Assembly (NCBI GenBank): GCA_023078555.1
Contig: CM041204.1
Location: 34,923 to 98,922, forward strand
DNA: 64,000 nucleotides
Direction: 5' to 3'
DNA from: Ulva prolifera
Taxonomy: Eukaryota > Chlorophyta > Ulvophyceae > Ulvales > Ulvaceae
The position numbers and the translations under genes are program-made. The stretch's first letter is position 1. Every line of letters begins with the position of its first letter. Positions 20,915 through 63,075 of the stretch are shown in pieces. The notes below the pieces were generated by a model that had not been told where the DNA came from, did no database searches, and saw only the letters and a list, made by a program, of their open reading frames with translations.

Positions 20915-21196
20915 TTGTACGACCCTGATGCGTATAGTTTTGTGCCGTTGTCGCATGAGACGCATGGTCGATTGGGACGGCCTGCCATGAATCACTTGAA
21001 TCGGCTGGCGGAGGTTGCGTCTCGGTGTGGCAAGGTGAACCGTGCTTTGTTTGTGACGAATGCTCTGCGCCGGTTGAGTGTGGCGTTGTGCAAGGGGAAT
21101 GCTCTTGTGCTCCGTGCGGGGCTTCAATCTTTGGCTGGCATCACCGGCCGAGCTGTGGTACGTGCTCGTGCCCGGCCTAGTGCCATGACTGCCTGA
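20915..21196 (+). pseudogene. C-terminal fragment of a second non-LTR retrotransposon
   Basis: A 93-residue open frame reads DAYSFVPLSHETHGRLG, then LRRLSVALCKGNALV, and stops at TGA 21196. From memory of the family, this F-x-P-x3-E-x2-GRLG ... LSVALCxGN pattern is typical of the extreme C-terminus of reverse-transcriptase polyproteins common in algal and protist genomes. No reverse transcriptase core precedes it here; 20402-20914 holds only short frames. The frame is followed directly by the 3' tail block, so it is a 5'-truncated insertion. Confidence 0.6.
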
Positions 21197-21347
21197 GTGG
21201 ATTTGCGTGTGTATTCCTGGCAACGGCTCGCTTCCCGGCCTCTGTCCTTTGTAACTACATACATACCTGGAAAGCGTGAGTGGATTTGCGTGTGTATTCC
21301 TGGCAACGGCTCGCTGCCTGGCCTCTGTCCTTTGTAACTACATACAT
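21194..21347 (+). mobile_element. Tandem pair of retroelement 3' tails
   Basis: Two copies start at 21194 and 21277, 83 bp apart. Each runs TGAGTGGATTTGCGTGTGTA ... CCTCTGTCCTTTGTAACTAC and ends in an ACATACAT microsatellite. The second copy is flanked by TGGAAAGC on both sides, a likely 8 bp target-site duplication. It abuts the left end of the duplicated kinase segment at about 21348. Confidence 0.65.
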
Positions 21348-27667: not shown

Positions 27668-27921
<254 letters not shown>

Positions 27922-35100: not shown

Positions 35101-35848
35101 TTGGCATGGCACTGCAAAAGGGGCGGCTTTTGGCATTTGAATGCATGATGATCTGCAATCATCATGTGTTACAAGGACAAAGGCAGCAAGGCGGGCAGCA
35201 CCGCGAAAGAAGCAAACAGGCGAAGCAAACACACAGACACCCACGCACGCGAAACCCACCACGCCCAAAAGAAAAACCCATCACCAGCACAGCAAAAGAC
35301 ACAGATCTGCAGACCGCAAAGCACACACCCACACACCCATGTGCACAAACCCAAACCTACACACGCACGCACAGACCCCACGGCCGACACACAACATAAC
35401 AACCACCAACACCACAACGCCCGCCGCCGAACGACGGGGCCAAACCCAACACACTGCTGCCTGATGATCTGCAGTCATGGTGTGGAAGCATATTAGGGAG
35501 ATGAGTTGTTCCCCCTGTTCGGTGAACATGCAGCACTCTGCCTTTACTGTGGTCGCCTTCGCTATAACAGTACGACCTCCTGATGTGCAGGAATGTCACT
35601 GTTACAGGCACGGCCAGTGCACGATCAGCTTGCAACGTTCATACTTGACAATCGCAGCGGGCAGCAGGCAGCGCACCGTCTCGCTGCATATGTTCCACAG
35701 CGAGGCGGCGGCGCCGCGGCTGTCGTACTTCGACAGCTTGTCAGAGGCCACCCCCACCAGCGCTCCCAGCTCCCGCACCACCGGCTCCGCGTGCGGTGGC
35801 AAGTCCGCCTTGACACTCTCCAGAACCTTGGCAACGTTCTGCATGAAC
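32187..35848 (-). CDS. Protein kinase with N-terminal helical/coiled-coil and U-box-like segments (copy 2)
   Basis: Exons: 35623-35848, 34516-35019, 33478-34049, 32749-33254, and about 32187-32491. The first four match copy 1 in length and phase. The fifth adds the end of the C-lobe, with SMTAIEAADRPPLASV containing the subdomain XI Arg. Order in the protein: helical N-terminus, 168-residue coiled coil, CCGF/C-x2-C U-box-like stretch, glycine loop GAGGEGTV, AVKQV lysine, HLDVTPGN catalytic loop, ADFGLAK, TPGYASKEQ. Oddities: the catalytic loop has Leu for Arg and Thr where Ser/Thr kinases usually have Lys, and SGVYSMG has Gly for the invariant subdomain IX Asp. The open frame of the fifth exon reaches TAG near 32088. 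Exons upstream of 35848 are not identified. A tyrosine-kinase-like family pseudokinase or signalling scaffold is inferred. Confidence 0.75.
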
Positions 35849-35921
35849 CTGCAACCCAGCCACAGCGTCGGCGTTGGACTGAGTTCCCACTGGCTGGGTA
35901 AGATGTCAATGTTGAACATCA
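32560..35921 (-). repeat. Segmental duplication, copy 2
   Basis: Partner of 21348-24360 in the same orientation. It contains one extra insertion (35167-35461). The sequence left of 32560 continues into kinase exon 5, absent from copy 1. Confidence 0.9.
35167..35461 (-). mobile_element. SINE-like insertion with target-site duplication
   Basis: Copy 1 of the duplication lacks these bases (empty site near 23928-23950). In copy 2 they are flanked by 35146-35166 and 35462-35482, near-identical 21 bp blocks starting TGATGATCTGCA. The element starts TGTTACAAGGACAAAGG on the plus strand, so on minus it ends in a tail resembling the local LINE tail. The body is C/A-rich without a long meaningful frame. 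A long target duplication and shared tail point to LINE-mediated insertion. Confidence 0.8.
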
Positions 35922-36460
35922 CTAGGAGAATGGCGACACACTGAAACGGATCCGGGTGTCGTCCGCCAGATTCCGAAAGTCCGTTCACTCTCTGATACCT
36001 CTCCGACGTCATCGGATGCGAGCAGTCGGATGGACCTTGGACTTTGGCACCGAACCATCCGCCGACCCAGGTATATTCCGCCGGACTGTGGACGTACCTT
36101 ACCGCTGCAAGTGGCCTTCGCATGTCTGCGCCGGCTGCCATGATACGAGGTCACTTCGGGCCAAGCCCGCGCTGACAGTGGATCGAATGATACTATTGGT
36201 TACTTTATTACTACATGCGGATCTGGAAACGACTGGATTGGACACGGTGCAGGTATATGTGGACCCATACTCATGGCAACTGACATCGACTTTGGGCAGG
36301 AGACGAAGCGGCAGGAAGCTGGAGGCAGGCTCACAACAGCGGTGACTTTTTGCATCGCCCAAGATAGCGTTGGTCCGTATGTCAGGCTCGGCAGCAGTCC
36401 TTGTAGTGTTGGTCGTCGCCCTGTGAAAGGTGGCCGGGAAAGCGTGCCCATAGGTTCCTG

Positions 36461-37022
36461 GACACGAATGCATGCGGTGGTCCAGAGTGGCCATTCGGCG
36501 AATGGCCACTCTGGCGGAGTTACGTCATCATGCTCCAGGTAAGGCGTGCGCCCGTCCTCCTGGACACGAATGCATGCGGTGGTCCAGAGTGGCCATTCGG
36601 CGAATGGCCACTCTGGCGGAGTTACGTCATCATGCTCCAGGTAAGGCGTACGCCCGTCCTCCTGGACACGAATGCATGCGGTGGTCCAGAGTGGCCATTC
36701 GGCGAATGGCCACTCTGGCGGAGTTACGTCATCATGCTCCAGGTAAGGCGTGCGCCCGTCCTCCTGGACACGAATGCATGCGGTGGTCCAGAGTGGCCAT
36801 TCGGCGAATGGCCACTCTGGCGGAGTTACGTCATCATGCTCCAGGTAAGGCGTGCGCCCGTCCTCCTGGACACGAATGCATGCGGTGGTACAGAGTGGCC
36901 ATTCGGCGAATGGCCACTCTGGCGGAGTTACGTCATCATGCTCCAGGTAAGGCGTGCGCCCGTCCTCCTGGACACGAATGCATGCGGTGGTACAGAGTGG
37001 CCATTCGGCGAATGACCGCTCC
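36461..37022. repeat. Palindrome array 1: six hairpins, 102 bp period
   Basis: Units start at 36461, 36563, 36665, 36767, 36869 and 36971. Each holds a 33 bp inverted repeat with a one-base centre, arms CCAGAGTGGCCATTCG. The last hairpin is degenerate and followed by CTCCAGCGCGG, also seen in array 2. Because 102 is divisible by three, frames stay open on both strands; these are not treated as genes. Confidence 0.9.
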
Positions 37023-37275
37023 AGCGCGGTTGATCTCACCCTGCCCTACCCGAGTGATCAGGCGCCTTTGCATTCGGGGCCCCCAACTTGGGTCGTGCTT
37101 CATGAAAGGGACAAACGGTGGATATAGTGTATGATACGGCTAACTTCCAGCGTTTGGAGTTCACCTGGCGTTTAAGTGCACCGCGTCCCTGCTGGCGTCG
37201 TATTCCTTCGCCTAGCTGCGCTGCTCGTGACCAGTTTCCGCTTCCGGCAGTGACCAAAATATTTATTTGCATACA

Positions 37276-40200
37276 ATGGATCCGCGCCATGCTGCAGCAG
37301 TTGCAGGACTGTCAAGTACCCAGAATGGGCCTACTTCCGCTCGCAGCGGAGACTTACTCGTTGGTCGCATGCGTACTCAGAGAATCCCTGTAGTGGGTAC
37401 TTTAATTTCAAGGGACGGGCGTTTTACGGATCGTGCCCGCGTCGGCCGCAACGACGGTCCACTGTCCGGTCCTGGGGTGTCGGTGTGGTGGTCCCTGGGG
37501 GTGGTTCTGCGAGACGACGTGGTGGAGAGTCGGACGAGGGAGCTGGGTACGGCCAAGGAAGTGATTGTCACTACCTGTCTCGCGCTCTCCTCCTGGCTGC
37601 ACGAGCAGGCAATGCTCGTGTCCTCGTGGGAGGGCACAGGGAAGACCCCACATGGCTGCCTTGTGCCCCGGCGGTGGAAGCCCCTGTTGGGAAAGAAAGA
37701 GGTGTGTGTGCCCGGTGTGCTGGTGGATCAGCTGAGCGCGATCTGCATTTACTGCCAGTCCACTGACACGGGGCCCAGCTAACCTGTGGAGTGGGGCCAG
37801 GACTCAGTGCCGCCATTTGTGCAGGTTGAGATCACCGGCCACGTATGTGAGTCTGGCCTCCCTAAGACCAGAATCACAGCGGAGAGAGATCCGGAACTTC
37901 GCCAGCGGTTCGATCTTCCTCAGATCAACGTGGGGGAAAAGCGCAAAGGCCCGGACCCCCCGCCTCCAGACGGTGTGCTCTCTGCACGCATGTTGTTATG
38001 TAACGCAGTCACGTATGCTGTCCCCACATCGTGCGCGGCATGGCCTCCGCATTCGTGCACAAGTGACATGGGTGTTCTCGGTGCAGTGTTTCATTGCTCC
38101 ACCCCACGACACGTCGTGTGGGCCTGGGCTTCCTTCATGTCTGGGCTGTCCCCTCATCGCACCAAGTTGTGGACAGCCGGAAAGGCTTCTCCCGCGGTGG
38201 AGGGTCACGGGTCCTCCAGGAGCAGGGAGAGACCCACATCCAACCTCCCAGAGGACCTGAACCCGCTGGTGGCGTGGGTGCTGTATGAACACGCACACTG
38301 CGCCCAGCTCGAGAGCATGGATGAAGATGAGCTCGAGCCGTGTCAGTCGATAGCACGGCACATTGGGGACCGGTGCCCCAGGATGTTGGCGAACACAAAC
38401 GGGGTCCCTGCACAGCCGGTTTTCCAGCTGACCTCGGGCGCGCCGGTGTTAGTCGACATGCACACCTCGCACTCGGACCTCATCAAAGCTTTCGTGCGCT
38501 CCGGTGACTTAACATGACTCCGGCATGGACAGGGGGACTGCCTGTTGGTCTGTGTGCTGTCCTGTTCTACCCGGCATTTGTGCCTTATCGCATGCATGAT
38601 CGTGGCCATGGTGCCCCGGGCCCTGTTTCTGTTGATCCCTCAAGACTGGCCTGTCACCGGCCTGGGCTCGAGCTCTGTAGTCAGGTCTCTTTGCGTGCAG
38701 GATGTCAAGATCCTCGGTGAGTTTGTCGCCGCGCTCGACAACTTAGGACCCTGGGTAGTGGCTTATGCGGCGGAGCACCCTCTGTTTGATTGTGCAGAGG
38801 TGCGAGGTGCCACTGACCTGTACATGCCATCGAGAGCTGCGTGTCTGTGCAGAGCTGTATATGCTTGCTGTTGCCCGTCCCCAATTGTTGAGTATACCTG
38901 GATCTCGCCGTGCAGGGTGACCGAGTAGCCCGAGCTCTCCGTCCGGCGTGGAGTTCTGTCCAGGCATTCAATTCCCACATCATGTGGGCATGTGAAGGGC
39001 TGCAGCTGACCTCTACGGAACTGGCGTCCTTCGCCACGAATGGGGTCCACCTGTTCATGCATGCTTATCGGCGCCTCGTCGCCGCGGCTGTGACAGGGGA
39101 CCCGGGGGCGCCTGTCCTGGAGAGGCGGCGTGTGCAGGACATTCCAGTCTTGGAGCCCAGCCTCCTGGATCCCGCCTTTGCCGCCATCCTGGTGTGCACG
39201 GTGAATACCAGCAGTGCGCTACCAACCTTTTCGTCTCCATTGTTCAGGATTCAGTTGTTACCTGCTGTAGCCCCCGAGGTGGGGCAAGACTCAGCTTTGC
39301 AGACAGTGCTCTCGTCTGAACCACGCGGTGCATCCAGGTTTGGTGAAATCGGGGTATGGTCAGCCCGTCAAGAGGCTGGCCGACGACCTGATCCCCTTGT
39401 GCCCGCCCCACACGCTGTGGCACTGGGCGCTCAGGAGCTGGCGGTACCTTAGCGTGGTGCAGAAAGACATCGCGGGGAGCAGTTCCGGGAAATCAGCATC
39501 CCCGTCGGTTGTCCGCCTTAGGCCAGGATCATTCCCCGGGATCAAGGACTGGGATTATGCCGGCGCTGAAGAGCTTGCCAAGCTGTCCTTGGCCAAGGGG
39601 ATGCAGAGCTCAAAGTGTTACATGTGCGAACCCCCGGTGATGGTCCCTACAGTGACCAGGAGTGTCTCTTGCAGAACATGCTCCCTGCATGTTCAGTCGT
39701 ATGCGTCTGAGTTCTGGCCATCAGATCCTCCTGTTCTTTCACCAACGGGAGCATGTGTTGCTGTTAGTTGATCCAGAGTTGACATGCACGGGCCCTGGGA
39801 CTACCAGCGTGTTCTGTTTGTTGTTGGCGACTCTGGTTAATTTTACAGGGCGGAGCTCAATAACATTCCCGAAGGTATCCTCGCCACCCTGCCCGAGGAC
39901 TTGCGGCAGCCGCCTGTCGTACCACCCCAGCCTACCCCTGGGGCAGGGGGTGCCGGTGACACCCCTGCCTCTGGCCAGCGCAACCGTCGACGAACCGGGA
40001 AGCACGAGGTAGCTAAAGCACGTACCAAGTCGCTATTGCTGCGTAAGATGGGCCTGCCACCAGCCAAGAAGGGGGACACAGCCGCTGGCGGCACCGACAC
40101 CGGCGGCAGCGACACTCAGGAATCCGGTGGGGACAGGGGCACCACCCGCCCTGCGTCCAAGGTGGCCACAGGGCCAGAGGTGCTCGGCCCGGGTGCCGCT

Positions 40201-41418
40201 GCGGGGCCGGGGCAGGGGGGGGCAGTCTCCCAGCCGGGGGGGGGATGCGTGTGGCCGTCCCGCAGAGGCTCTGCCGGTCACGGCAGTGACAGGGGGGTTG
40301 AGCCTGACTGTGGGGCGGGGGGTGGTTTGGGGGGGAAAGCAGCGGCGGTGGCAGATTCGGCGGCGAAGGCGGGATTGAACCCCACTGTGAGGGTGGCAGC
40401 CACTGGGGGGGCTGCGGAGGCATTGCCAGTCACAGCGCTGAAGGCGGGACTGAGTCCCGTGGAGGGGAGGGCAGCGGGGGGGGGAGACGCGGAGGCTACG
40501 GCAGGCTTGGCGGGGCAGGGCGGGTTGAGCCCAACGGTGGCGGGGGCGGGGGGGGGGGGGGGGGGGGGGGCGGGGGGGGGCTGGGCTGCGGAAGCTATGG
40601 CAGACATGGCGGCGCGTGGCGGGTTGAACCCACCAGTGGGGGGGGAAGTTGTGGGGGATGTTGCGGGGATCCCCTTGCAGGGTCAGGACGCTACAGGTCG
40701 TCCAGAAGTGGGCCCCTTTGGCCTGCCTGTCCCCGTGCCGGCGGGGGGACCGGCACCGACACCTACAGGGTTTATGCAACCGGACAGTGCGGGAGGAAGT
40801 GGGGGTCTGGTGTACGATCCGGTAGCAGACGCCATGTTTGCAGATGCTCTCGCTGAGGCAGTGCTGTATCCGGAAGACCACTCCTCAGACGATTTCGGAT
40901 CCATCAGCTTGGATGACGATTCGGTTCGTTCTGACCCAGCGGACCCCCGCTGCGCTGAGCACGAAGTGGCGGCAGAGGACCCTGAGACTAGGCCGTCCCA
41001 AATAATCTACCTGCACGATAGTTCGGGGTCAGTTCGTCTAACCGTGGACGAGTCCTTCGAGGAGCAGAAGACCACCCTGCACATGGCCGCCACTTTCGTA
41101 TCCCCTCCGGGTGGTTCGGTCGGGCGTGCAGCTCAACTGCGGCTCATTGTCGTGGCAGTGGACCTGATGTTGGTAAGCACCGCCGGCATGGGTTTGACTA
41201 AAGCGGAGCGCTTAGTCCGCATGAAGTCGATCATATCGGCTTACGGGCTCCAACCAGATGAAGGCACTGTATCCGAAGTTGTGTCACTGATTCAGACGGT
41301 GCGCTCCTCCAAGCAAACAACCCCCGCCACCCCCCCTGGCCAGTCTGTCGCATGGCCGTGGTGGGCCAATTCTCTACTCCCGCTCCCAAGGCAGACGTAC
41401 AGTACCCAGGGATGTTGA
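37276..41418 (+). CDS. Unknown multi-exon accessory protein of the transposon
   Basis: Exon 1 37276-37701 (start MDPRHAAAVAG, donor GTGTGT, phase 0) joins an acceptor at 37824 to VEITGHVCESG. Further coding-like blocks lie at about 38700-38860, 38960-39330, 39400-39650, and 39847-41418. The last exon starts AELNNIPEGIL, passes a basic stretch (QRNRRRTGKHEVAKARTK, possible nuclear signal), a long Gly/Ala/Pro low-complexity region with G tracts near 40551-40577, an acidic patch (SLDDDSVRSDP) and a helical tail (GMGLTKAERLVRMKSI) before TGA at 41418. No domain is recognised. Position and orientation, divergent from the transposase genes, suggest an accessory DNA-binding protein such as TnpA in other CACTA elements; this is inference. 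Internal exon limits are approximate. Confidence 0.45.
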
Positions 41419-41470
41419 CCGTGCAGGGACGCAATTCTACAGAGGGCAGCGAAGCCGTCCCAGCCCCGGA

Positions 41471-41570
41471 TCCTGTGGTGAATACTGGTTGATGAGCAAA
41501 GTCCCTGGGGGATGGGGGCCTGTGGTGAATACTGGTTGATGAGCTAAGTCCCTGGGGGATGGGGGTGCCG
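41471..41570 (+). repeat. ~49 bp tandem repeat, two units
   Basis: CTGTGGTGAATACTGGTTGA is repeated 49-50 bp apart, each followed by AAGTCCCTGGGGGATGGGGG. It lies just downstream of the stop of the unknown plus-strand gene. Bases 41571-42224 show no gene. Confidence 0.8.
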
Positions 41571-42224
41571 GTAGCACAGCTGCGTGGGAGTACACTTTAA
41601 TGCGGCGTGCAGTGTCCGCTAAGCCATCAAGCGTAGAACTTCCCGGCAGTATCAGCATAGTAACTTTGTTAATGCAGATGCTACGGGAATACGTCAAAAT
41701 TATTCCCATTTCGACGGTAATACAAGGACGGTGGGCCACATCACTGTACAGTGATGCACCCCCGTCTACTAGTGCCATACGCTCTGCTATAATGCAGGGG
41801 TTGACCGTTGTACCCCTCTAATCCTACAGCGCCGACCTGGTGTAGCCGTTGAGGATTGATAGTATTTTTTACACGAAATAACGATTAGAATACTGAGTCG
41901 AACTCCGTACGCAAACTGTGGCGTCTTGTCTTCTGTAGACAATGGGTTCAGAACAGTTTCAGCTGTGCCTGCCTGGCAGCAGCCCGCAGCGCTGCAGTCG
42001 AGACACCGAGGTTCAGTGCAGCTGCAGCGAAATGGCATCACCTGGCCTGTGGCGTCGGAATCTCCCGGATGCCACCCTTCAGTGTCTCATAAACGCGTCT
42101 TCAGCGATTTAGCCATCAGCTTGTTATACTGCTGTTTCAGGGTAGCCACTACCGGGCGCGCAGTCTCCAGGAAGGCGTCAAAGCGCGCCTGCAGGTACCA
42201 CTCCCTGCAGATCCAGCAGCTTCA

Positions 42225-42810
42225 TCAGGCAAAGGTCCCCACCGGGCCTCCAAGGGGGTGCCAGAGGATAGATGGTGACAATGCTGCGGTGGACATGGCA
42301 GGTGCATCGACTCGCCCGCACCTCAGCTGCTCTTCGGAAAAGTCTTTGAAGGGCGGTGTCTGGAGGTGGCGGTCCCACCTAGCGTCGGCTAGAATCTTGG
42401 TGGCATCCTCGACTGATAAGTGTCCCAACTTGTCGCCCCCTCTCCCGCCTCGGTGCCACTCTTGAATGAGGGCTCGAGTGAGGACGATACGGTACAGCAC
42501 CGCGTGCTGCACCTTGACGCGGTTGGTGAGTAACAGGACCCTTCGAGTCGCCTCGACACCGTGGATGTCACTGCTGAACACAGTTCCCCCCTCCTGTCGC
42601 ATGCGGTGGATGACGTCGCACACAGCGTCGGCCAGCATGCATGTGAAAACCCCGCAGTCGTGGCCGTTTGGTTGCTGCGGGGTTCCTCCTACCTGGACAC
42701 CATTGGGGGACGGTTATAATGCTAATGTTACGTCAACAGATCAAGTCCACCGCAGACCTTGGACGCGGGGTGGTTCCAAAGCAGTACGCTGTCCGGGTTC
42801 GGGCAGAGAA

Positions 42811-42848
<38 letters not shown>

Positions 42849-45458
42849 CAGGTGGGCGCAATCAGAGGGTGCTGTTGTGTCAACGATTGCAGTCCATTTG
42901 GTAATATGCGCGACTGTCAAGGGTCAGAGGACAGCATCTGTGTGGATGGTATCGCAGGAGAACAGTGGGACGTGGGCATTGTACCTTCGCCAACTTCAGG
43001 GTTATCCTAGCGGTGGATTCGGTCGGCCGGGTGGCCAGTCGGACGTTGTGTGGGCGGCCCACTGCTTTTACCCGAGGCCGGGTGGTAGATGCGGGGTCTT
43101 CCGGGGGGGAGGGGGCCCGGCCCTCGGGGTAGTCCAGCGCCATGCACAGAGCCTCACTCAAGACGTCCCTGGCCCGTTCAGCGGTGCCTGAGCCGGCGCT
43201 GATCAGGCTGTCAAAGAACGACACAGTCGGCGCCTTATTCTGCTTCATACGCCCTGCATTATGGCTGAAACGTCAGTAGTGGCGTTCAGCGGGCCTACTG
43301 TGGGGGGGGGGGGGGGGGGTATGGGGGGGCGGGGGGCAATATGACAGTCCTACGCACAGCAGGCTACCTCATCACAAAGTCTGCTGCGGCGGGAGAGCGT
43401 ACATGGATGCCAGATGACAGCCAACATCCAGTGGCCGTTCCGGGGGACAGGGACTAAGACACATTCTTGCTCAAAGGTGTGAGCTTTGAACAACCACCGC
43501 CCCATAAATCTGGTGCGTCCGCTTGACCAGTCTGCGTCCGCATCCCCAGTACATATCCCAGCCATATTCTGGCTAGGCGTTGCAATGACGCCCTGCCCGG
43601 CCAGTGCGACACACCTACTCAAGGCGTAGTCAACGTGTGTACTCTCGGCCCATGCGGTGGGCCAGCCTCTCGCGAGGGTTTCCAGACCGACTGTCACAGA
43701 CACCCGAGCATCCCCAAAATGCCCTAGTTGCAAGATCACACCCCCCACCACATTCGGGAACCTCCCCCCATCGTCGTCGTCGGAGGACACTACGGTCGGT
43801 TCAGCTGCATCCTGCGTTGTGTCGGCAGCGGATGTACCGGCGTCTTTGGAAGTGGACCCCCACTGCTGCTTCAGCTTGCCCGGAGGCTTTGCAGGGATGT
43901 TTGTGACCCAATCCGGCGGCACCACCGGAGGGTGTGCCAGGAGGGATGCTGACAGCCGCGGCTTATCCTTACCGGCGGCCGAAGGCTCCGGGACGTCCGG
44001 GGCAGGAGGAGGTGCGGACTGGATTGGCCCCTCTTGACCGGGTGCTGGACAAGCAGGCTCCGGAGAGGTCCGGAGCGGGGGGGGGGCCTCGCCGATGGAG
44101 CAGATGGCTGCACCGACTGGGGCAGGTTGGGGCCCCTCGCTAGGGCCATCATCAGGGGTGACGGATGGAACCGGATTGGCATCGGTGTCCGACCTCGCCT
44201 TATTGTCTCCTTCGGCAGGGGGGTCCGCAATGGGCCCTTCCCAGGCGGGGGGATCATCCGGGGGACCTGCCGGCCCCGCGTCTGCGGCAGCTAGTCTGGT
44301 TTCGATAGCTGTAGCGGATTCGTCCAGCCGCGGCGGCGGCAGACAGCCACTGGTCCGCGATGGCGACGGCGGCCTCACAGGGCCAACCGGCTGTGGGGAC
44401 TGCTGGGGCAACGCCACAGGGGGAACCCCTACTGCAGCCGGCCCCTCGGGCGGCGGATGATCCCGGCTAAGGATCTGCGCTACGGCCGCAGCCCCCCCCC
44501 GTGCGGCACCCCGTGCCCCCCTGGGCCACCTAATTCGGGCGGGCTGCTGAAGACTGGTGCCCCGATCTGCGCGCCCTCTACCCGGAGCCCGTGCCCCTCG
44601 TGCCTCGCCAACCCGCTGCTGCTGCCGCGGATGGGTGTGTCTGCCACGCCCCTGCCTTCGGTCACCCGGGCCTATGCTGGTGCCGCTGGACTCTGTTGGC
44701 GGCGGGGCAGCGGCTGCACCCGGTCCTGGGGCTGTGGCGGTGCCGGTGACGCCCCCAAGAGCGGCGTCGGGTCCCCCCCGGTCTTCACCGTGCGACCCGC
44801 CCGCCCCACCCCTCTCTAGCTGTAACGCCAACATGGGCGCCTGCAGAGGCCCCACATGAACCTCGGAGACAGGCCACTTAGGATTTGGAGTCCGTGCGAA
44901 GTTTGCCTCGCACTGTATCCACTCGCAGATCAAGTCTGTCCCGCCCGTGTGCCGCACACGTTCGAGCAGGCCGCCAGCGTCTTCTATGATGCCCGCGCCG
45001 ACCTGGCAAGACCGGTACAGCACGATCTCCTCTGGCTTGCACGGGGCCTTAGTATGGACCGCGCGCTCGAATGCGATCATCCGGAGGTCGTGCCAGAGGG
45101 ATTTCATCTTCTGCTCTACCCGCGCGGCGTGGTCGGCGGTGTGTGAAGCCTCTACACTCTCCTTCATCGCCCGGATCGAGTCCAGGTACATGTCTAACCC
45201 TTCCCCCCCGGCCTCCACTATAGAGCCCACCATGGTAACATCTACAGTCGTTAATAGGTAGGCGTTGGCCATGAAGTCTATCGGGAACCCGGGCTTCCGG
45301 GTACAGATCGTTAGTGCTGGGATCGGCTGGCCAGGCGTCCAGTTACCCTTCAGGGCGGTTTCCAGGAACCGCTTGAAAGACGAGTCACACTGACGGTTAC
45401 TACGAATTGTCGCAAGGTAGGCCCGCAAGTCCCCGTCCGTTATCATACTGGCACACAT
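42225..45458 (-). CDS. Ulp1/SENP-type (C48) cysteine protease of the transposon
   Basis: Three exons, all phase 0: 43368-45458, 42985-43239, 42225-42674 (TGA), about 931 residues from the ATG at 45458. The catalytic residues are in order: His in NGHWMLAVIW (end of exon 1), Asp in SFFDSLISAG (start of exon 2), and Gln then Cys in QPNGHDCGVFTC (start of exon 3). The N-terminal 250 residues are helical with charged stretches; the middle is a long Pro/Gly/Ala-rich linker. Ulp1-type proteases remove SUMO or process polyproteins; in CACTA- and KDZ-type elements they are commonly carried cargo. Introns contain pure G tracts on the plus strand. It follows the transposase gene head-to-tail, with about 350 bp between stop and start. 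Confidence 0.85.
42814..42847 (+). repeat. 34 bp poly-G tract
   Basis: Uninterrupted G run in the second intron of the protease gene. A second run is at 43302-43319 in its first intron. Confidence 0.95.
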
Positions 45459-45809
45459 CGTGTGGACTGTACACCGCACAGAAACGTTCTATCCGCGCTA
45501 TCGCGACGCAGTCTTCCTACATCAACTGCATCAGACCTTGCACCTACCATTAATCTGTCCGCTGGACCTGCGACGTGCACTAACAGACGACACCGACGCT
45601 TGAAGAGGGAGCGAAAGTGGCCACGAGCGCACGCCGCAGGACGTGGGTTGTATGGCTCCAACGAGGGTGGCGCCTGTAGACACGCACTGGCGGGGACTCT
45701 GGTCCCCCCCGTGGCCCTCTGGCAAGTATGGAAAATGCAAAGTGGGCACAACTGGGATTGCCATCAACTGGGATTGCTGACGAAGGCATTTGGCGGTGGT
45801 CTTGTACAA

Positions 45810-48800
45810 TTACACAGTTCGGCCAGAAGCCTTGTTCGCTGTGGACCAATACTGCACATTTTGTGCACCCCTCCGGACTGGAACTAACTGGCATGGAACT
45901 GCGTCCAAGTCTACGACGTATCTGCCGGCATATGCCCGAGACCCCCTGTTTGCACCCGCCACACCGAAAAACTCGGGGGGACGTTTCAACACGGGATCTG
46001 GGGCGCGGGCTCCCGGGGTGGCTGGCAAGGTGCAATTATACAGATCAGCAACCCCCAGGTACAATGGGTTTGGTTTCGCAACACATGACACGCAACACAC
46101 GCCATCCCGGGGCTGCAGACACGCCCTCGTGAAATACTGCAGTTCCCCGACGAAATACGTCACTGTCCCGCCACCCCCGTCCCCGTCCCCCCCAATGAGG
46201 TACCTCAAGAGGCACCACTTGTTGTCTTTCTTCCCTTGCGTACACTGTTGCGCGCAGCTGAACATGTCTGCAACGCGGGATTGCATCTGGTGGAACTTCA
46301 TAAGTGTCACTGTGCCCTCACGGCGAGCCTCATCAACACTGCCATCCACCTTCAGGCCCAGAGCTCGGTGGATGGCCACCTGACGTGCATAACCAACCCC
46401 CAGGCGACTGTGAGTTGGCCAGCCCTCGTCCTGTAGGGAGTCCTGATGGAAGAGGAGGTACGGCAACCCTGTCAGATTATCTCCCACAAAGTCCAGGGGG
46501 AGGACCGCCGCAGTCTCAGACTGGGCTAGGGCCCTGCCCACCCCCACGACCCTGCCGGTGATCCGGTCACTGTCAATTGGTTGCTCCCCGTCAGCGGATC
46601 TTCCATTGCGAGTTCGTGCCCGCCGGCGTTTCTCAGTCGCTATGGCATCTGACAGTGAAGTCATGGCAGCAGGCAGTGAAGCTGCATCATGCAACAGCCG
46701 CATACATGTGCGGCGCAGCAGTTCATCGCTCACATATACTTGTTCAGGGCAACGAGTCGATCGATACTTGATCAGTCTCTTCAGGAGCTGGACCATCCGC
46801 TCGATCCAGAATTCAAGACTGAAGAAGGATGCACCGCAGCACCTCACCTGATCCGGTAGGTGACTGGCCGCCAGATGCAGCTTGTACGTGCTGAGAGCAG
46901 CCCCTTCAAACGTCTCTTCCGCCAGTTTGGCGTACTGCAGCAGCAATCGCTGTGCTTCCGTGATTCGGGCCGGTGTGTGCTGACCCTCTTCATATCTGAG
47001 AAAGTAGAGGGCCCCTGCTCGCAGGAGCCCCCACGACTGCTCAAACACGCTGCGTATGCGTTTCTCGGAGGCTTTCCACGGGAGATCGTGCAGGAGGTAC
47101 AGCGAGAATGTCTCGGTGAAGGCCAGCCAGTCTTCCATGAGCCAGCGACTGCGGTGCCTACGCAAACAGTCACCCTGACTCAGACGGGATGCTTCAACAG
47201 GAGTGCACATGGTTCCTGTGTCCAAGTAACAGTCCGAAAAATGGCGCAGCCTCGGATGCGAGCAGGGTGTGCAGGCGATGGGACTGCGCACTTGGTGATG
47301 TCGGTGTACACCTTCTTGAAAAGAGAGGTCTGCATGATGTGGGGCGCTCTGGCAGCTATCGCCTTGACGACATCCTCTGGCAGTCGGAACAGGGCCCGGA
47401 GGCCAGTCAATGGCGCCTTCTTGGACTTCTTCCGGCCCAGGGGAGGGAGCCACTGGTTCCAGAAGTCCATGAGCACACCGAGCAGAAACACGTGCGCCAC
47501 TCCGAGCCGGAAGAAATGGCAGGGACTGCAACGCCACAGCGTAATTCATAATCAACTCCAGACTCAAGGGCGAGGCAGGCAGCAGCAGGCTGGGGGTGCT
47601 CGTACTTGAAGTAGGAGAGGAGACTGAACAGCGGAGAACCTTTCACCCCCAGTAGCTTGTACTCATCTTTGGCGAGCTTGGCCCTGGACTTCGGTGTCTT
47701 CCGGTCGCAATAGCGTTTCAAGGTTGGTGCGTGGACCTGCATTACCACAGGCCTGGCCAGGGTTACCACAAGAAAAGAGCCGTATCACCAACGACGCTTG
47801 TTCGGTGTCAGAGGGGTTGGCAAGATGAGTTGCGGCGCACAGAGGGGGGGCAGGGGAGTAGGCCGCATGTGCACAGTTTGCATTCGATGACACTGTAGAT
47901 GGAATTGCACCTGGGCAGCGATCGTGTCGCCCTTTCGGCCCCTGGCCAGGATCTCTGCCGCCGAGTACTTCAAGCGGTTGTCCGACTCCCAGGACGAGGG
48001 CTGCACATGCCGGGGCTCAGACCACGCGGTCCGTGGGGGGTTGCCACCAGTGTCCGGTTGTACACTCCCAGGCACCATCCGGGGGTTTGCAGCCGAGGAT
48101 GCTGCTTCTTCCTCCGGGGTGAGTGATTTCCCTTTCAGAGGCCCGTCGGCATAGCAGGGCACGGGCTGGTGCAGAGGGTGATGGTGTCCCATCCACCTGT
48201 GTGGCATGCATGATAGCAGTTATAAGCAGGACAGGTACGTGAGACAGCACTAGCAGGAAAGAGATTACAAACGTAAGTGAACACCCCGGACCTGACAGTG
48301 TTGGAGGGGTAATCCCACACGCCGTTTTGGGCACATCTGAAACATGCCCTCTTCGCTGTATGGCCGATGCTGTTGGTAAGTTTCTCCAGCCATGGGATAT
48401 CCCCCTCCACACAGCACAGCACCGGCCACACGTGCAGTACCTCGCCCCCGGGCAGTGTGATTTTGAGTGCCTCACCCCCAGCTCCTGCACTCCAGCCATC
48501 ACGTGGTGCGGGGGCCAGACACTACGTGATCGGGAACTGTACACATCACCCGGCAGTGACCAGGAAGACAAGGTGAGTGCGCGCCCGGATCATGCTTCTT
48601 GAAGAACGCCATCACGGACTCCAGAATGCTGGCCATGCATGTTGGTTCGGATGGCCCCTCCACCACTCCAAGGGGAATCCAGGCCACATTGGTACTTGAG
48701 AGATGGGGCGGCAGGTCAAGCAGGCGGATCCCCCAGATTGTGACACCGTGCTGCTTGTTGACGTACAGCTGGGCCCCGTCCCCCCCTGCAGGAAAAGCGA

Positions 48801-50326
48801 CTGTCGGGACACGAGGCAGAGGGTCTCAATTCGCGGAGTTGCATAGGCGTGCCGATGCGGTGTGATAGCCACCTGCTCAGATGAGGAGGTGGAGCGCACC
48901 GAGGCTGAACAGCAGGACAAGCTCCCTATGCTTTGGCTTCAGGATTTTGCCCCCACACGCCAGGTTGAGGGCCTTTCCAGCCGGGGAGTTGAGGAAGCTG
49001 CTTTTGTCTTTGACAGCTGTTGCCCTGGCTTCCCGTACGCTCGTCAGCAGCCCCGGCTGCAGGAGGAGGTCTTTCAGCGAGGCTTCTTCGCCAAAGAAGA
49101 AAGCTGAGCGCACAGGGACACCCTTCCCTGTGAGATCGACATCAAATCGCTGTTGACAACAACCTGGGGTTCCACAGGTGTCCGCCAGATGCTGGTGATG
49201 GTCACCCGGATCAAGTGGGGGGAACAAGGTCCAGCATTGGGGACAAACGTGGCGCGTTACAGAGGAAACAGGCGGGACACCCAAGACCGCCTTGACGAGG
49301 TGGAAGGAGGGAGGGAAAAAGTTTCCATCGGGTAGCAGGAGGTAATGTATGAACCTGCACCACGTGTCGACGACCACGTCTTGTATGCGGAAGAGGCTCT
49401 TCAACTGGGCAATCCACATGCACACTGTGAGGACGGTGAGGGCGCTGCCGGTGTATATGTGTTTCATGCGTTGCTCATGCCACCAGGCGCCCGTGCCCTT
49501 CCGGGCCCCTGTGGTGGGGTCCGGGCCGTCGTCATCCGCCTCCTGCATGTGCAACGATCAGGCGTGTCCTACGGAGGAGTACGAGCTGATTCACAGCATT
49601 GTATGTAATGGAAGATGTGGACACACCTCAGGTTCGTCTGAACTGTAGTCCGTCTCTGATGAAAAGGCAATGGAGTCGGCGTCTGAGAAGTCTGAGTCGT
49701 CGTCTGAAAATTGTGCGGGGCCCTCGGCGTGATCGCTTTCGGACGGTGGGGGCAGCTGTACACAATCCCAACACCTCGGAGTTGCATTGGGCGAGCAGGC
49801 AAGAAACAGCTGAGGGACAGGAGCGCTGACACCCATGGCCATCGTGATCACGAGCCGCTGTCATGCCGATCTGCATCATGATCAGGCAAACCGGGACTTA
49901 GCACGGTCAACTACCGAAGGTACGCACGTCGAAGAGGTCGTCGGAGTGGGCAGGCTCATCGGGGGGACCCCCCATGTCTGGAGGTGATGGGGATCTCCCA
50001 GAGGGACCGGCCCCGTCGTGTCTGCCGCTGCGGTCATCATCGGCAGTAGCGGAGGTCGGGCCAGCGGCTGGCCTCGAGTCTGGGCCCGCGTCGTCGTGTC
50101 CACCAGCGGCTCTCCGCGATGCGGCTGCTGCACTCAGTCGACGGCTGCAAGGACCGTGATGGTTTTGGGCGGTGTTGTGCCTCTGAAACTTCTCACCACA
50201 GCCTAGACACTGGTATTTAAACGGTTCCTTCCCCGTCGGCTCGGGAGGGATCAGGCGCTTACAGTTCGCTTTGGCAACCAATTCGTTCACCTCCGCCCTC
50301 TTCAGTCTATCCGCCGAACCAGCCAT
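45810..50326 (-). CDS. Tnp2-family CACTA transposase
   Basis: The first exon (ATG at 50326) encodes a zinc finger: YQCLGCGEKF ... NHHGPC. An acidic Ser/Asp exon follows (49650-49740). Then 49554-48877 carries HVCPQCWTLFPP, WWHEQRMKHIYTG and the typical H/C cluster. 48880-48540 carries QLYVNKQHGVTIWGI and a following leucine-rich strand; 48430-48260 carries VLCCVEGDIPWLEKL, GHTAKRACFRC and WDYPSNTVRSG; 47500-47250 carries AHVFLLGVLMDFWNQWLPP. The final long exon contains MEDWLAFTETFSLYLL, YKLHLAASHLPDQVR and FFSLEFWIERMVQLLKRLIK, the DUF4218-like C-terminal pattern of Tnp2 proteins, and ends at TAA/TAG near 45810. Exon limits are only partly defined. Reading frames are long and mostly undamaged, so the element may have been active recently. 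Confidence 0.8.
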
Positions 50327-50663
50327 GGTAGCCAGCCGGACTTAAGCATTCTTGTGAAGATGTTCAACGATAGCGCGGCCTCTGGTGTTTGTCGTCCCTA
50401 TGATGGCATTACGTCCCACGAAGACCTCCCTGTCGCATCCCATGTTCGCCCTGACGCCACAATCCCAGGCGAGGCGCCGGGGTATCGAGGCAGCCAAACC
50501 TTTGAAGGCGGACCGCGCGACGACGCTACATCGGCATACCATTCAAAGCACGGAGCAGCAAAGCATGTGCGAATGACGCGATATGTTAGCTGTGCCTACG
50601 ATACGACCATCCACAGTACGGGCCATAGACGTGTGTTAATTCCGCTTTGTCTAATCATCCACC
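50327..50663. promoter_or_regulatory. Divergent intergenic region in transposon
   Basis: These 337 bp separate the start codons of the transposase (minus) and the unknown plus-strand ORF. Both promoters must lie here if both start codons are right. No clear TATA or repeat is visible. Confidence 0.4.
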
Positions 50664-51386
50664 ATGTCCAACCTGCAGTTCACGTTCCTCCGCGCGGCGC
50701 CCGTCGTCATCGAGAAAGAAGTTGTAGATGACGCAGACAACGGAGCAGGGATGCTTGACGTGCTGGTCAGCAACGTGTGGAGCAGAGGTGCCGGCGTCGA
50801 CGGGTTGACTTTGACGTCAACCGTCGACAAAGACAGCTCCGTTGATATCGACAGTGTCGAGAAACTGATGACGTGCGTAAGGTACTTCTTCAGGAAAGGC
50901 ACTATCGCTGGACTGCTGAAGCCGCCCGTGCTGGTGAAGGCGCTGGGCAAGGGCAGAGGGAGCGTGGGACAAGCGTCGGCAGCAGTCGGCACTGCACACT
51001 CCACAGCTACGGCCTTGACTGCGGACCCGGAAGCTGACAGGCGGTGGGAAACGATGAAGGATGCGGTGATGATGTGGACGGAAGGGATGAGATCCAAGGT
51101 GGCGGGAATGGCCGATGCCCACACGCAAGGCAAGAAGGTGCAGGGACTAGTGAACCTGGCCCTCCCAGACGACGAGAAGGTGTGGGTCGGGAGTATTCTA
51201 ACGAAAACGCGGGCGGACGCACTCGGCAAAGCTGCACATGGGGTACGGCTGCTGTCTCCGACTAACAACGTGATTGCAAACTGGGGTCCACTACCACCCC
51301 GTCAGGCCCACGGGATCCCATGCCACCGACTGTCAGTGTTGTGTCTTGGCGCGTCAGAGTCGCCATTCGCGGTCAGTATGCAGTGA
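50664..51386 (+). CDS. Unknown 240-residue protein of the transposon
   Basis: One uninterrupted frame from ATG (MSNLQFTFLRAAPVVIEKEV) to TGA. Features seen: a basic helical middle (VRYFFRKGTIAGLLKPPVL), an Asp/Trp-containing segment (RRWETMKDAVMMWTEGMRSK) and KVWVGSILTKTRADALGKAA. There is no signal peptide, membrane segment or recognised family. It is divergent from the transposase with 337 bp between, suggesting co-mobilised cargo or a regulatory partner. The last 35 residues could be replaced by a spliced exon, because another frame continues to about 51470. Confidence 0.55.
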   Translation: MSNLQFTFLRAAPVVIEKEVVDDADNGAGMLDVLVSNVWSRGAGVDGLTLTSTVDKDSSVDIDSVEKLMTCVRYFFRKGTIAGLLKPPVLVKALGKGRGSVGQASAAVGTAHSTATALTADPEADRRWETMKDAVMMWTEGMRSKVAGMADAHTQGKKVQGLVNLALPDDEKVWVGSILTKTRADALGKAAHGVRLLSPTNNVIANWGPLPPRQAHGIPCHRLSVLCLGASESPFAVSMQ

Positions 51387-51596
51387 CGGGTATCGTGTAC
51401 AGGTCGGCAGAACAGGTGAAGCGTACAAAGCTGCGACTAATATCAATCATGCTTTCTACCGCCAGCACGCCCATTTGAACGCCGTGACCAAAGAGTGTGC
51501 CTCTGCTGATGCTCGGGTTATGCCGTGCCTGTTGCCGTGCCCATGCCGTACCTGCTGCCGTGTGTAACGACTGTGAAGTCAAGAGACATAGAAGAA

Positions 51597-51686
51597 GAGA
51601 TCTGTCGTCTACCCTTTAAGGTTCAGCTGCTTATATACTATGAGATCTGTCGTCTACCCTTTAAGGTCCAGCTGCTTATATACTAT
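51597..51686 (+). repeat. 45 bp direct repeat, two units, TATA-containing
   Basis: Two units at 51597 and 51642: GAGATCTGTCGTCTACCCTT ... CAGCTGCTTATATACTAT. Each includes a TATATA core. It lies 210 bp after the unknown ORF and may be sub-terminal transposon sequence or a duplicated promoter. Confidence 0.8.
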
Positions 51687-51969
51687 AAGACAGCCTGTGT
51701 ACGACACCTGCCACAGTGTGCTGAGCTCAGCCCACTGTTCCCCGTACTGTGACGTATCGTCACACCGTGCCCAACGGTGGCGGAGAAGGGAAGCACACAG
51801 TATCCGCCCAAACGGAGGTGACCCGATGTGCAGGAAGTATGCGAGACGGGCGTGGGACCATAACACGGGCCTGCGGAGGAATCCCAGCGCCCGCGAGCAG
51901 AGGAAGCTGCTCGCGGCAATGAATGTGTTCCAGAACACCAAGGCATGTCCTCCACCTTGGTCAGAGTTG

Positions 51970-52395
51970 GAGTGGCCATTCGCCGAATGGCCACCCCAGC
52001 GCGTCCTGCGTTGTGTTGCACTGCACGCGCCCGGAGTGGCCATTCGCCGAGTGGCCACTCCAGCGCGTCATGCATTGTGTTGCACTGCACGCGCCCGGAG
52101 TGGCCATTCGCCGAATTGGCCACTCCAGCGCTGTCATGCATGTGTTGCACTGCACGCGCCCGGAGTGGCCATTCGCCGAATGGCCACTCCAGCGCGTCAT
52201 GCATTGTGTTGCACTGCACGCGCCCGGAGTGGCCATTCGCCGAATGGCCACTCCAGCGCGTCATGCATTGTGTTGCACTGCACGCGCCCGGAGTGGCCAT
52301 TCGCCGAATGGCCACTCCAGCGCTCATGCATTGTGTTGCACTGCACGCGCCCGGAGTGTCCATTCGCCGAATGGCCACTCCAGCGCGGCGCGGCC
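51970..52395. repeat. Palindrome array 2: seven hairpins, ~64 bp period
   Basis: Hairpins start at 51970, 52034, 52098, 52163, 52227, 52291 and 52354. Arms are GGAGTGGCCATTCG with a single C centre. The spacer is about 35 bp, with CAGCGCGTCATGCATTGTGT and TGCACTGCACGCGCC. The core is the same as in array 1 but the spacer differs. Some arms carry single mismatches. Confidence 0.9.
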
Positions 52396-52539
52396 TGCTT
52401 GAATCCGCACTTGCATGGCCACTGACCTGCCATTCGGCGACTGTGTTCCAACCAATGTGGTTCGTGCGCAGTTCACCGTGAGAGGAGACCGCTTTCCCTA
52501 TCGATAGCGAACCCATGAAAACCCCCGAGGCCTGGGCCT

Positions 52540-52707
52540 ATGGAGGACGGTGAGTATGTGTGCGAAGGAATCGCCAAGGTTGCTGCGGCCCGGCGCGCCA
52601 TCGAAGGGACCGCTGACTCTCCCGTCCAACGGGGCAAGAGACAAAGGAAGACCGAGAAGGTACAATCTCACCACACGCTGTACTGCCCGCCTGAGGTTGG
52701 CCATTAA
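52540..52707 (+). CDS. Small basic ORF or exon, unknown
   Basis: 55 codons: MEDGEYVCEGIAKVAAARRA, then a basic stretch PVQRGKRQRKTEK resembling a nuclear localisation signal, with TAA after GH. A donor-like GTACAATC follows TEK, so it may be an exon. No family is recognised and there is no second exon I can prove; 52708-53600 has only short frames. Confidence 0.25.
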   Translation: MEDGEYVCEGIAKVAAARRAIEGTADSPVQRGKRQRKTEKVQSHHTLYCPPEVGH

Positions 52708-53600
52708 GTGGTACCGGGATTGTACGGGCGCCTGTGTGAGCGGCATGTGCCATCATTCGAGGCAGCCATGCGTGTACAGGCTCCTACCGCATCAAAGTCA
52801 GGAAGACGGGGCACTCATTCCAACAGCGGACGGCGCACAATGCTCGCTGACTTTTCTCCCCGGCGGCCAGGGCTAGAACCAAGGGCAGACCGCACTGCTG
52901 ATAAGGACAGTGAGCACCAGCCGGACGTGGAAGAGGTGGGGTCANCCCTCTAACCTGCCTCTCGAAGCCGAAGCTCCGAATCTGTCCGTGCGTACATCTG
53001 TGCCTCACCCGCGCCACTACAATCATGTAACACACCAGTGCCGTGCCTAGGGCATCAGCTGCTGCCCAACTTCCCTGTTCCGCATGCCTTTTCCATATTG
53101 CCAGCAGCTGCTTGAGGAATTCCCACATCATGTGGAGGCCTCGCACACATCCTCTGGAGTTAACTGGCAAGTCAACGATATCGATCAATGTGTGACAGAA
53201 CATCATGCGTACTTGGGTGCAGACAGACAGCAGTTCCACGATTTAGAATTGAATTCAATTCGATTCGAGTTGATGGATGCCCCAGGCTCGCCCATGCATG
53301 CAGGTTGCTTGAAATTGAGCCTCGAAAGCCTCTGTAGCCATTCAACTTCGCAGACAAAAGACTCACCAGCACACACACAGAAACCCGCCAGCTTGATTGC
53401 AGGAGTGAGCGCAAAGCGAAGGCTCCAAGAGACTCTGGCCCTGGCTCTCCGGAACAGCACGATCACTGCCTGCACACCTCGCTCGTAGCCTCCACGGACA
53501 CCTGCGTGCACCAGCCACAGGCGTCATCGCTCGATCGTCGACGCCCGCAGGACCGTATTCGTGCTCCGGAGCTCTGATATCCTGGCCTGCACTGCAACGC

Positions 53601-63038: not shown

Positions 63039-63075
<37 letters not shown>

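Follow-up and report, generated by a model that had tools for sequence, protein, structure and literature searches.

Palindromic tandem arrays inside both ends of a CACTA-type transposon of Ulva prolifera are predicted clusters of protein-binding sites

Why should one palindrome be repeated in two separate tandem arrays whose units otherwise differ in length and sequence? The question is raised by a 64,000-nucleotide stretch of the Ulva prolifera genome (GCA_023078555.1, CM041204.1 positions 34,923–98,922; hereafter the window, the coordinates of which are used throughout), in which array 1 (36456–37021, + strand) and array 2 (51969–52387, + strand) are built around the same near-perfect palindrome. 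Here we find that both arrays sit within one CACTA/EnSpm-type transposon of about 18 kilobases (kb) with CACTAG..CTAGTG ends. Judged from sequence, they are probably cis-acting clusters of predicted binding sites for an accessory protein that the element itself would encode, serving to join the two ends for the transposase and possibly to autoregulate the element. Genome-wide matches refer to the 88.9-megabase assembly, contigs of which are written C1, C2, C9 and C36; loci fetched from it are written L001 and so on.

Array 1 has a period of 102 base pairs (bp; 5.5 copies, 98% matches) and array 2 a period of 64 bp (6.5 copies, 96% matches). The palindrome common to both is GAGTGGCCATTCG-N-CGAATGGCCACTC, 27–33 bp in length; each 102-bp unit carries it together with one ATGCAT, and the 64-bp units carry the same palindrome and ATGCAT. 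The repeat periods and palindrome positions thus bear out the initial annotation, which had proposed two arrays with a single core, and CTCCAGCGCG, which it had assigned to both, is present in both, in array 1 at the inner end only. Exact matches to the palindrome arm number 404 + 400 in the assembly, against 0 + 2 for a reversed control, and one unit per array, folded as DNA, outdid 200 of 200 shuffles (z −3.9 and −4.5). The hairpin core gave 0 matches to viral contigs. The annotated difference in centre base, G for array 1 and C for array 2, holds within the window but not across copies, in which both bases occur at both ends (left arrays, GGC in 73 and GCC in 42 of 118 units; right arrays, GGC in 143 and GCC in 17 of 160), so that the centre base is not diagnostic; its use as a sign of inverted array orientation was dropped on the same counts.

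The borders of the element are defined by its copies. Similarity among copies begins at 35920, where the left terminal inverted repeat (35920–35939, + strand; CACTAGGAGAATGGCGACAC, with the half-site GAATGGCGAC) stands and where the copies are bounded by 3-bp duplications. The terminal repeat CACTAGNAGAATGGCGACAC has 47 + 52 = 99 genome-wide matches (control, 0), and CACTAG[GA]AGAATGGCGACAC is found at both ends of copies and at the left end only of the window copy. The window copy has no right end because it is cut at a single assembly N at 52945, where the transposon stops abruptly; other copies continue for about 1.38 kb beyond the matching position, which places the right terminus outside the window, and end in ...GTGTCGCCATTCTTCTAGTG. 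The N is probably an assembly break, and the right flank in the window may therefore not be truly adjacent. Pairing of ends recovered 14 elements of 17.6–24.2 kb in family A, to which the window copy belongs, with identical 3-bp flanks in 11 of them. Target duplications were likewise seen in a 3.4-kb family A derivative (1/1, GTG), in two of three pairs of family B (in which one degenerate terminus, CTAGGG, was paired by a loosened pattern) and in all three pairs of family D, but not in C9:323136–341395 (0/1; left CAT, right GGG), giving 17 of 22 end pairs overall. The shared termini, paired ends and 3-bp duplications identify a CACTA-type element with both arrays inside it. The CACT(A/G) termini and 3-bp duplications that the initial annotation had anticipated are thus present, and the termini lie outside the arrays rather than well within them.

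Three copies (the window copy, C9:323136 and one on C36) have the same left flank (window 35900–35919; C9:323116; C36:2521), which suggests segmental duplication or unresolved haplotypes. Another flank is common to L007, L008 and L009.

Are the arrays a regular part of such elements? Array 1 starts about 0.54 kb from the left end and array 2 about 1.9 kb from the right end. End anatomy was read in 28 of 30 left loci and 26 of 30 right loci, an intact terminal repeat being required and the other six loci excluded; a few of these ends duplicate one another. The first palindrome centre lies 567–680 bp from the left terminus (28 ends, 2–7 palindromes per end) and 1,898–2,013 bp from the right terminus (26 ends, 3–10 palindromes per end). 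The fetched loci were selected by similarity to element ends, so the 591 of 804 palindrome arms that fall inside them do not amount to a rate. The first 100 arm matches, all on contig C1, were taken in positional order and so were not chosen by their surroundings. They form 17 clusters, of which 16 are at CACTAG-type termini: 12 lie less than 2.5 kb from an exact terminal repeat, four more are at directly read termini (L062, L063, L066 and L067, the last degenerate), and the sole exception is one lone arm (C1:3034001). In this sample, the proposed association of arrays with element ends is therefore upheld. An apparent orphan array at C1:979078–980251, considered as a counterexample, was rejected as such: it has no exact terminal repeat nearby, but a terminus with an altered repeat lies 1.1–2.2 kb away.

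The arrays are not the outermost repeats. A zone rich in TCCG/CGGA (35920–36120 in the window, limits approximate), which looks like classical CACTA subterminal repeats, fills the outermost 150–450 bp, which makes the palindromes a second zone further in. In L001, an identical copy, the first 150 bp hold nine TCCG/CGGA motifs (background, 0.9 per 150 bp, maximum 5), and seven sampled ends hold 5–9 in the same interval. As in subterminal repeat systems of the TnpA type, a short motif recurs in both orientations close to each end. The description of the hairpins as 'sub-terminal' sites therefore needs qualification: they are near both ends, but inside a separate TCCG/CGGA zone, and array 2, about 1.9 kb from its end, is in a predicted intron.

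The same plan recurs in a distant group. Array 1 is upstream of gene 1, the first open frame of which (37276–37779, + strand; MDPRHAAAVAGLSS..., ATG at 37276) is conserved in families A, B and D and has no known domain. A search with the gene 1 protein led to family D (34–39% identity over about 100 residues; 36% and 39% identity to A in two aligned D elements), the arrays of which are built on another palindrome, GAATGGTYGGTG-NNN-CACCRACCATTC, with 828 sites genome-wide and 0 for the control. In element C2:6944325–6962535 the left array comprises five copies with a 93-bp period and the right array four, one imperfect, with a period of about 66 bp; in C2:3718496–3736605 the left array comprises four clear copies with a 67-bp period and the right array eight copies. 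Both D elements therefore show the two-array plan of family A, at both ends and with their own palindrome. Transposase segments of D and A agree at 75–83% over the first 70 or so residues and 65–73% over the next 65 or so (among the matches listed, 150 of 351 candidates having been scored), so that array divergence follows the accessory gene more closely than the transposase. The first 100 matches to the D palindrome form six clusters; four have a terminus no more than 3.3 kb away, one falls between two paired terminal repeats 37 kb apart and one is 11 kb from the only nearby listed repeat. By eye, the D locus L081 has a related exon piece before its right array, and L078, a different element, has another after the right array. 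For family C, a left end was not found in the 5 kb examined (L073).

Family D also shows some finer variation. Units with symmetric and asymmetric arms are mixed in one left array (L079:592–990; CACCGACC twice, CACCAACC three times), and some symmetric outer-arm variants occur within one array of L081. Separate 30-bp tandem repeats (GCGGAATGTCCTATGGCTTCCTTGGTGGCC-like) stand 110–235 bp from the terminus at three D left ends (L069:1306–1395, L074:1473–1592 and L079:140–229).

What has been conserved in these arrays is the palindrome. Consensus units from the left and right arrays agree at 27 of 29 hairpin positions in both family A and family B, with spacer identities of 0.34 and 0.28, respectively. 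Between A and B, the hairpins agree at 27/29 on either side (spacers, 0.54 left and 0.76 right), and right-hand units of C agree with those of A and of B at 25/29 (spacers, 0.63 and 0.55). The unit search fixed 13 of the 29 hairpin positions, which inflates the hairpin agreement, although the remaining positions still score above the spacers. These figures bear on the possibility that the arrays are passive minisatellites, in which a chance palindrome was expanded by slippage or recombination and conservation reflects homogenization within arrays rather than function. The near-identity of units within an array, the range of copy number (2–7 and 3–10 per end) and the length of the predicted array 2 intron, which varies mostly by steps of about one unit, are what such a process would produce. 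Homogenization should, however, include the spacers, yet, whether ends or families are compared, the arms are far more alike than the spacers; moreover, each of two families has an array at each end, built on a palindrome of its own. We regard a purely passive origin as improbable.

With a looser anchor, 312 of 315 sites were hairpins, and 110 of 3,744 pair cells deviated from pairing, of which only 11 were compensated; selection, if any, has thus favoured the sequence itself and not its pairing. Compensatory change, considered as a possible proof of structure, is accordingly unsupported in families A–C. The annotated contrast between conserved hairpins and drifting spacers stands in so far as the arms are far better kept than the spacers, but it is arm sequence, not pairing, that is conserved. 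The further claim that the spacers are unrelated fits most of their length (28–34% left/right identity) but not ATGCAT, which was found in 11 of the 12 arrays counted.

A clue to what the arms might be is given by the terminal repeat. The arms of both A and D contain GAATGGY, as does the terminal repeat. In family A, the arm GAATGGCCACTC agrees with the stretch GAATGGCGACAC within the terminal repeat at 10 of 12 positions, a score reached by 5 and 1 of 2,000 dinucleotide shuffles, and no other site in the terminal 540 and 1,800 bp matches the A arm as well as the terminal repeat does. Arm and own terminal repeat have a 7-mer in common in each family: GAATGGC in A (8 and 26 of 3,000 shuffles) and GAATGGT in D (76 and 34 of 3,000), in which the terminal repeat is CACTAGGAGAATGGTGAC (pattern CACTAGNNGAATGGTNAC, 121 matches; control, 0). 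Orientation differs between the two families: GAATGG is on the outside of the palindrome pointing inward in D, and on the inside pointing outward in A. Arms of family A in swapped order also occur, as a single palindrome at C1:10621435–10621461 (L068), which is flanked by ACGTCATC as in the left arrays of A and is the only match to its sequence in the genome at one mismatch or fewer.

The surroundings of array 2 point to an intron (51943–52471) of a right-hand accessory gene. One exon (51826–51942, + strand; MCRKYARRAWDHNTGLRR...) would end at the predicted donor, and the next (52472–52659, + strand; FTVRGDR...MEDGEYVCE...) is out of frame in the window copy and is not open in the single C copy; in all 26 other A copies examined and in all three B copies it is open. 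The exon-like stretches are bounded by a donor-like G(C/T)A(C/T)GT in 29 of 30 copies, mostly GC rather than GT, and, ahead of the following exon, by GCAG in all 30; differences between copies in the two stretches concentrate at third positions (18/38 and 24/48).

With array 1 before and array 2 within predicted + strand genes, the units might instead be promoter or enhancer arrays, in which host transcription factors bind ATGCAT and ACGTCA and drive gene 1 and the right-hand gene with no role in transposition. The recurrence of ATGCAT in otherwise unrelated spacers, against a background of 1.15 per kb outside the element, would suit this explanation, as would the retention of ACGTCATC, the stretch with ACGTCA, in the left arrays of A, B and L068. 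It leaves unexplained the likeness of the arm to the terminal repeat, and equally a 6.5-kb D element that has arrays near both ends (15 + 2 palindromes listed) and no transposase among the matches listed. We consider it unlikely, if less so than a passive origin. The same positions, array 1 upstream of the first start codon and array 2 in a predicted intron, together with the strong folding of the units, could alternatively mean that the hairpins act in 5′ leader and intron transcripts, for example in splicing control or as sources of small RNA. Such a role seems very improbable: arm changes are mostly uncompensated; the inward strand has C opposite A in nine of nine listed palindromes of L074 and three of five of L079; Rfam gave no match at gathering score in 35500–53500; and the arm matches a terminal repeat that is DNA.

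We therefore return to binding-site clusters as the probable explanation. The working unit would be a half-site of about 12 bp starting with GAATGGY, which is set in the arrays as closely spaced inverted pairs with ATGCAT nearby and also has a single copy within the inner portion of the terminal repeat. An accessory protein would bind the pairs as a dimer, mark the ends of the element and bring both together for the transposase; the likeliest candidates are encoded by gene 1 and by the gene carrying array 2, each of which adjoins an array. As array 1 is upstream of gene 1 and array 2 is in a predicted intron, the same arrays may in addition dampen transcription or splicing of the element itself.

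Several observations weigh against this explanation. Array 2 is absent from the 3.4-kb derivative that has a GTG target duplication, although it could have been lost after insertion. The full 12-bp arm of D matches its terminal repeat no better than chance, and the C/T agreement between arm and repeat fails in L072 (repeat GAATGGT, arm GAATGGC) and at C1:981326 (repeat GAATGT). In family D, no palindrome occurs within 3.2 kb of the right end of C1:9287868–9310889, and no exact D palindrome is near the terminus C1:795930. Neither gene 1 nor the right-hand gene has a DNA-binding domain recognized by Pfam, and a structure model of the gene 1 frame was unusable (mean predicted local distance difference test score 39) and was discarded.

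A broader scheme, which we put forward tentatively and hold to be possible rather than probable, is that of a single lineage with a near-constant transposase core and terminal repeats, in which two palindromic arrays have repeatedly been rebuilt from the terminal half-site along with fast-changing accessory genes, as both a specificity code and a feedback switch. If so, divergent pairs in one family and convergent pairs in the other would be a code against cross-mobilization of coexisting families; one of the accessory genes would carry an array in its own intron, and the code would double as a feedback switch.

A long low-complexity open frame of the element (39841–41418, + strand), known from the list of open reading frames and without a Pfam match, is possibly a later part of gene 1. 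The annotated Ulp1 protease is supported by a modest match of an exon at 42225–42713 (− strand) to Ulp1/Peptidase_C48 (PF02902, E 1.7e-4, 22 bits against a cut-off of 20.7). The transposase is on the − strand, with a C-terminal exon region (45810–47642; HLAASH and IERM motifs and the weak match to DUF4218), an exon with the second D and C(2)C (48135–48521; EGDIPW...CFRC), an exon with the first D (48499–48825; GGDGAQ) and a probable N-terminal exon (48877–49557) in which CPQC...H..C looks zinc-binding by eye and for which Pfam gave nothing significant (best E 1.1). Read by eye against the description of EnSpm and its relatives excerpted from PMC12730594, GGDGAQ, EGDIPW then CFRC, HLAASH and IERM supply the DDE, C(2)C and H(3-4)H motifs. 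The designation 'Tnp2' is favoured by these motifs and by a weak DUF4218 match (E 0.16), but the element had no match to Pfam Transposase_21 (PF02992), and single frames and joined exons gave no significant transposase family in Pfam.

Other repeats were noted in the window. An 83-bp minisatellite unit (21194–21347) resembles by eye repeats beside a C1 family B element (L062:1300–2001), and long runs of C or G occur at 27811–27920, 63039–63074, 40542–40580 and 42814–42847, two of them inside the element.

How do these arrays compare with known systems? In maize En/Spm, a 12-bp TnpA motif occurs in the terminal 200–300 bp or so, and to our knowledge that element has no long palindromic tandem units. 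Like the Ulva element, En/Spm repeats a short motif, direct as well as inverted, close to each end; its subterminal repeats are recognized by the element protein TNPA, which supports excision and can block RNA polymerase there and hence transcription (excerpts of PMC2613891). Also close are the soybean elements Tgm and Tgmt*, for which the same excerpts describe CACTA ends, a 3-bp target duplication, a length of about 20 kb and inverted pairs of a short, family-specific motif that form many palindromes in unequal numbers per end, with a presumed TNPA-like binder. Tgmt* has 2 left and 12 right stem-loops of this kind near its ends, for which TNPA-like binding and co-diversification of motif and protein have been proposed (PMC2613891). 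TgmR* is similar, and a protein on its subterminal repeats has been proposed to hinder host-gene splicing (excerpts of PMC4219821). As described there, the Tgm/Tgmt* repeats reach no further than 159 and 732 bp from the ends, whereas the Ulva arrays are long-period tandem repeats about 0.55 and 1.9 kb in, inside a separate TCCG/CGGA zone and with one array in a predicted intron; further differences from those descriptions are that the Ulva palindrome is inside-out between families and that its half-site is common to the terminal repeat (PMC2613891).

EnSpm/Plavaka (CMCT) transposons, as characterized in parts of PMC12730594, also encode a DDE transposase bearing C(2)C and H(3-4)H motifs, and EnSpm families have CAC..GTG ends and a 3-bp duplication; Plavaka ends are TGT or CATCA, in contrast to CACTAG here. 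EnSpm–Plavaka occurs in the green alga Auxenochlorella (excerpts of PMC12633428), and the word 'subterminal' is absent from the text of PMC12730594. Chenopodium CACTA elements likewise have tandem repeats near an element end, but these are a captured satellite near the 3′ end (passages of PMC8978399), and neither 'palindrom' nor 'hairpin' appears in the main text of that study. At the level of titles and abstracts, we found no description of such arrays in algae, and do not claim their absence from print.

The pace at which CACTA subterminal repeats and the proteins that recognize them change together has been posed as an open question (in part of PMC2613891). Several families coexist in the Ulva genome with the same layout and different, countable sites, which makes that question directly testable, and palindrome type together with terminal repeat is a simple marker for sorting these elements. 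Clustered subterminal sites are thus known from En/Spm and Tgm; the Ulva elements add inner, long-period arrays that are predicted to be partly intronic, are inside-out between families and have a half-site in common with the terminal repeat.

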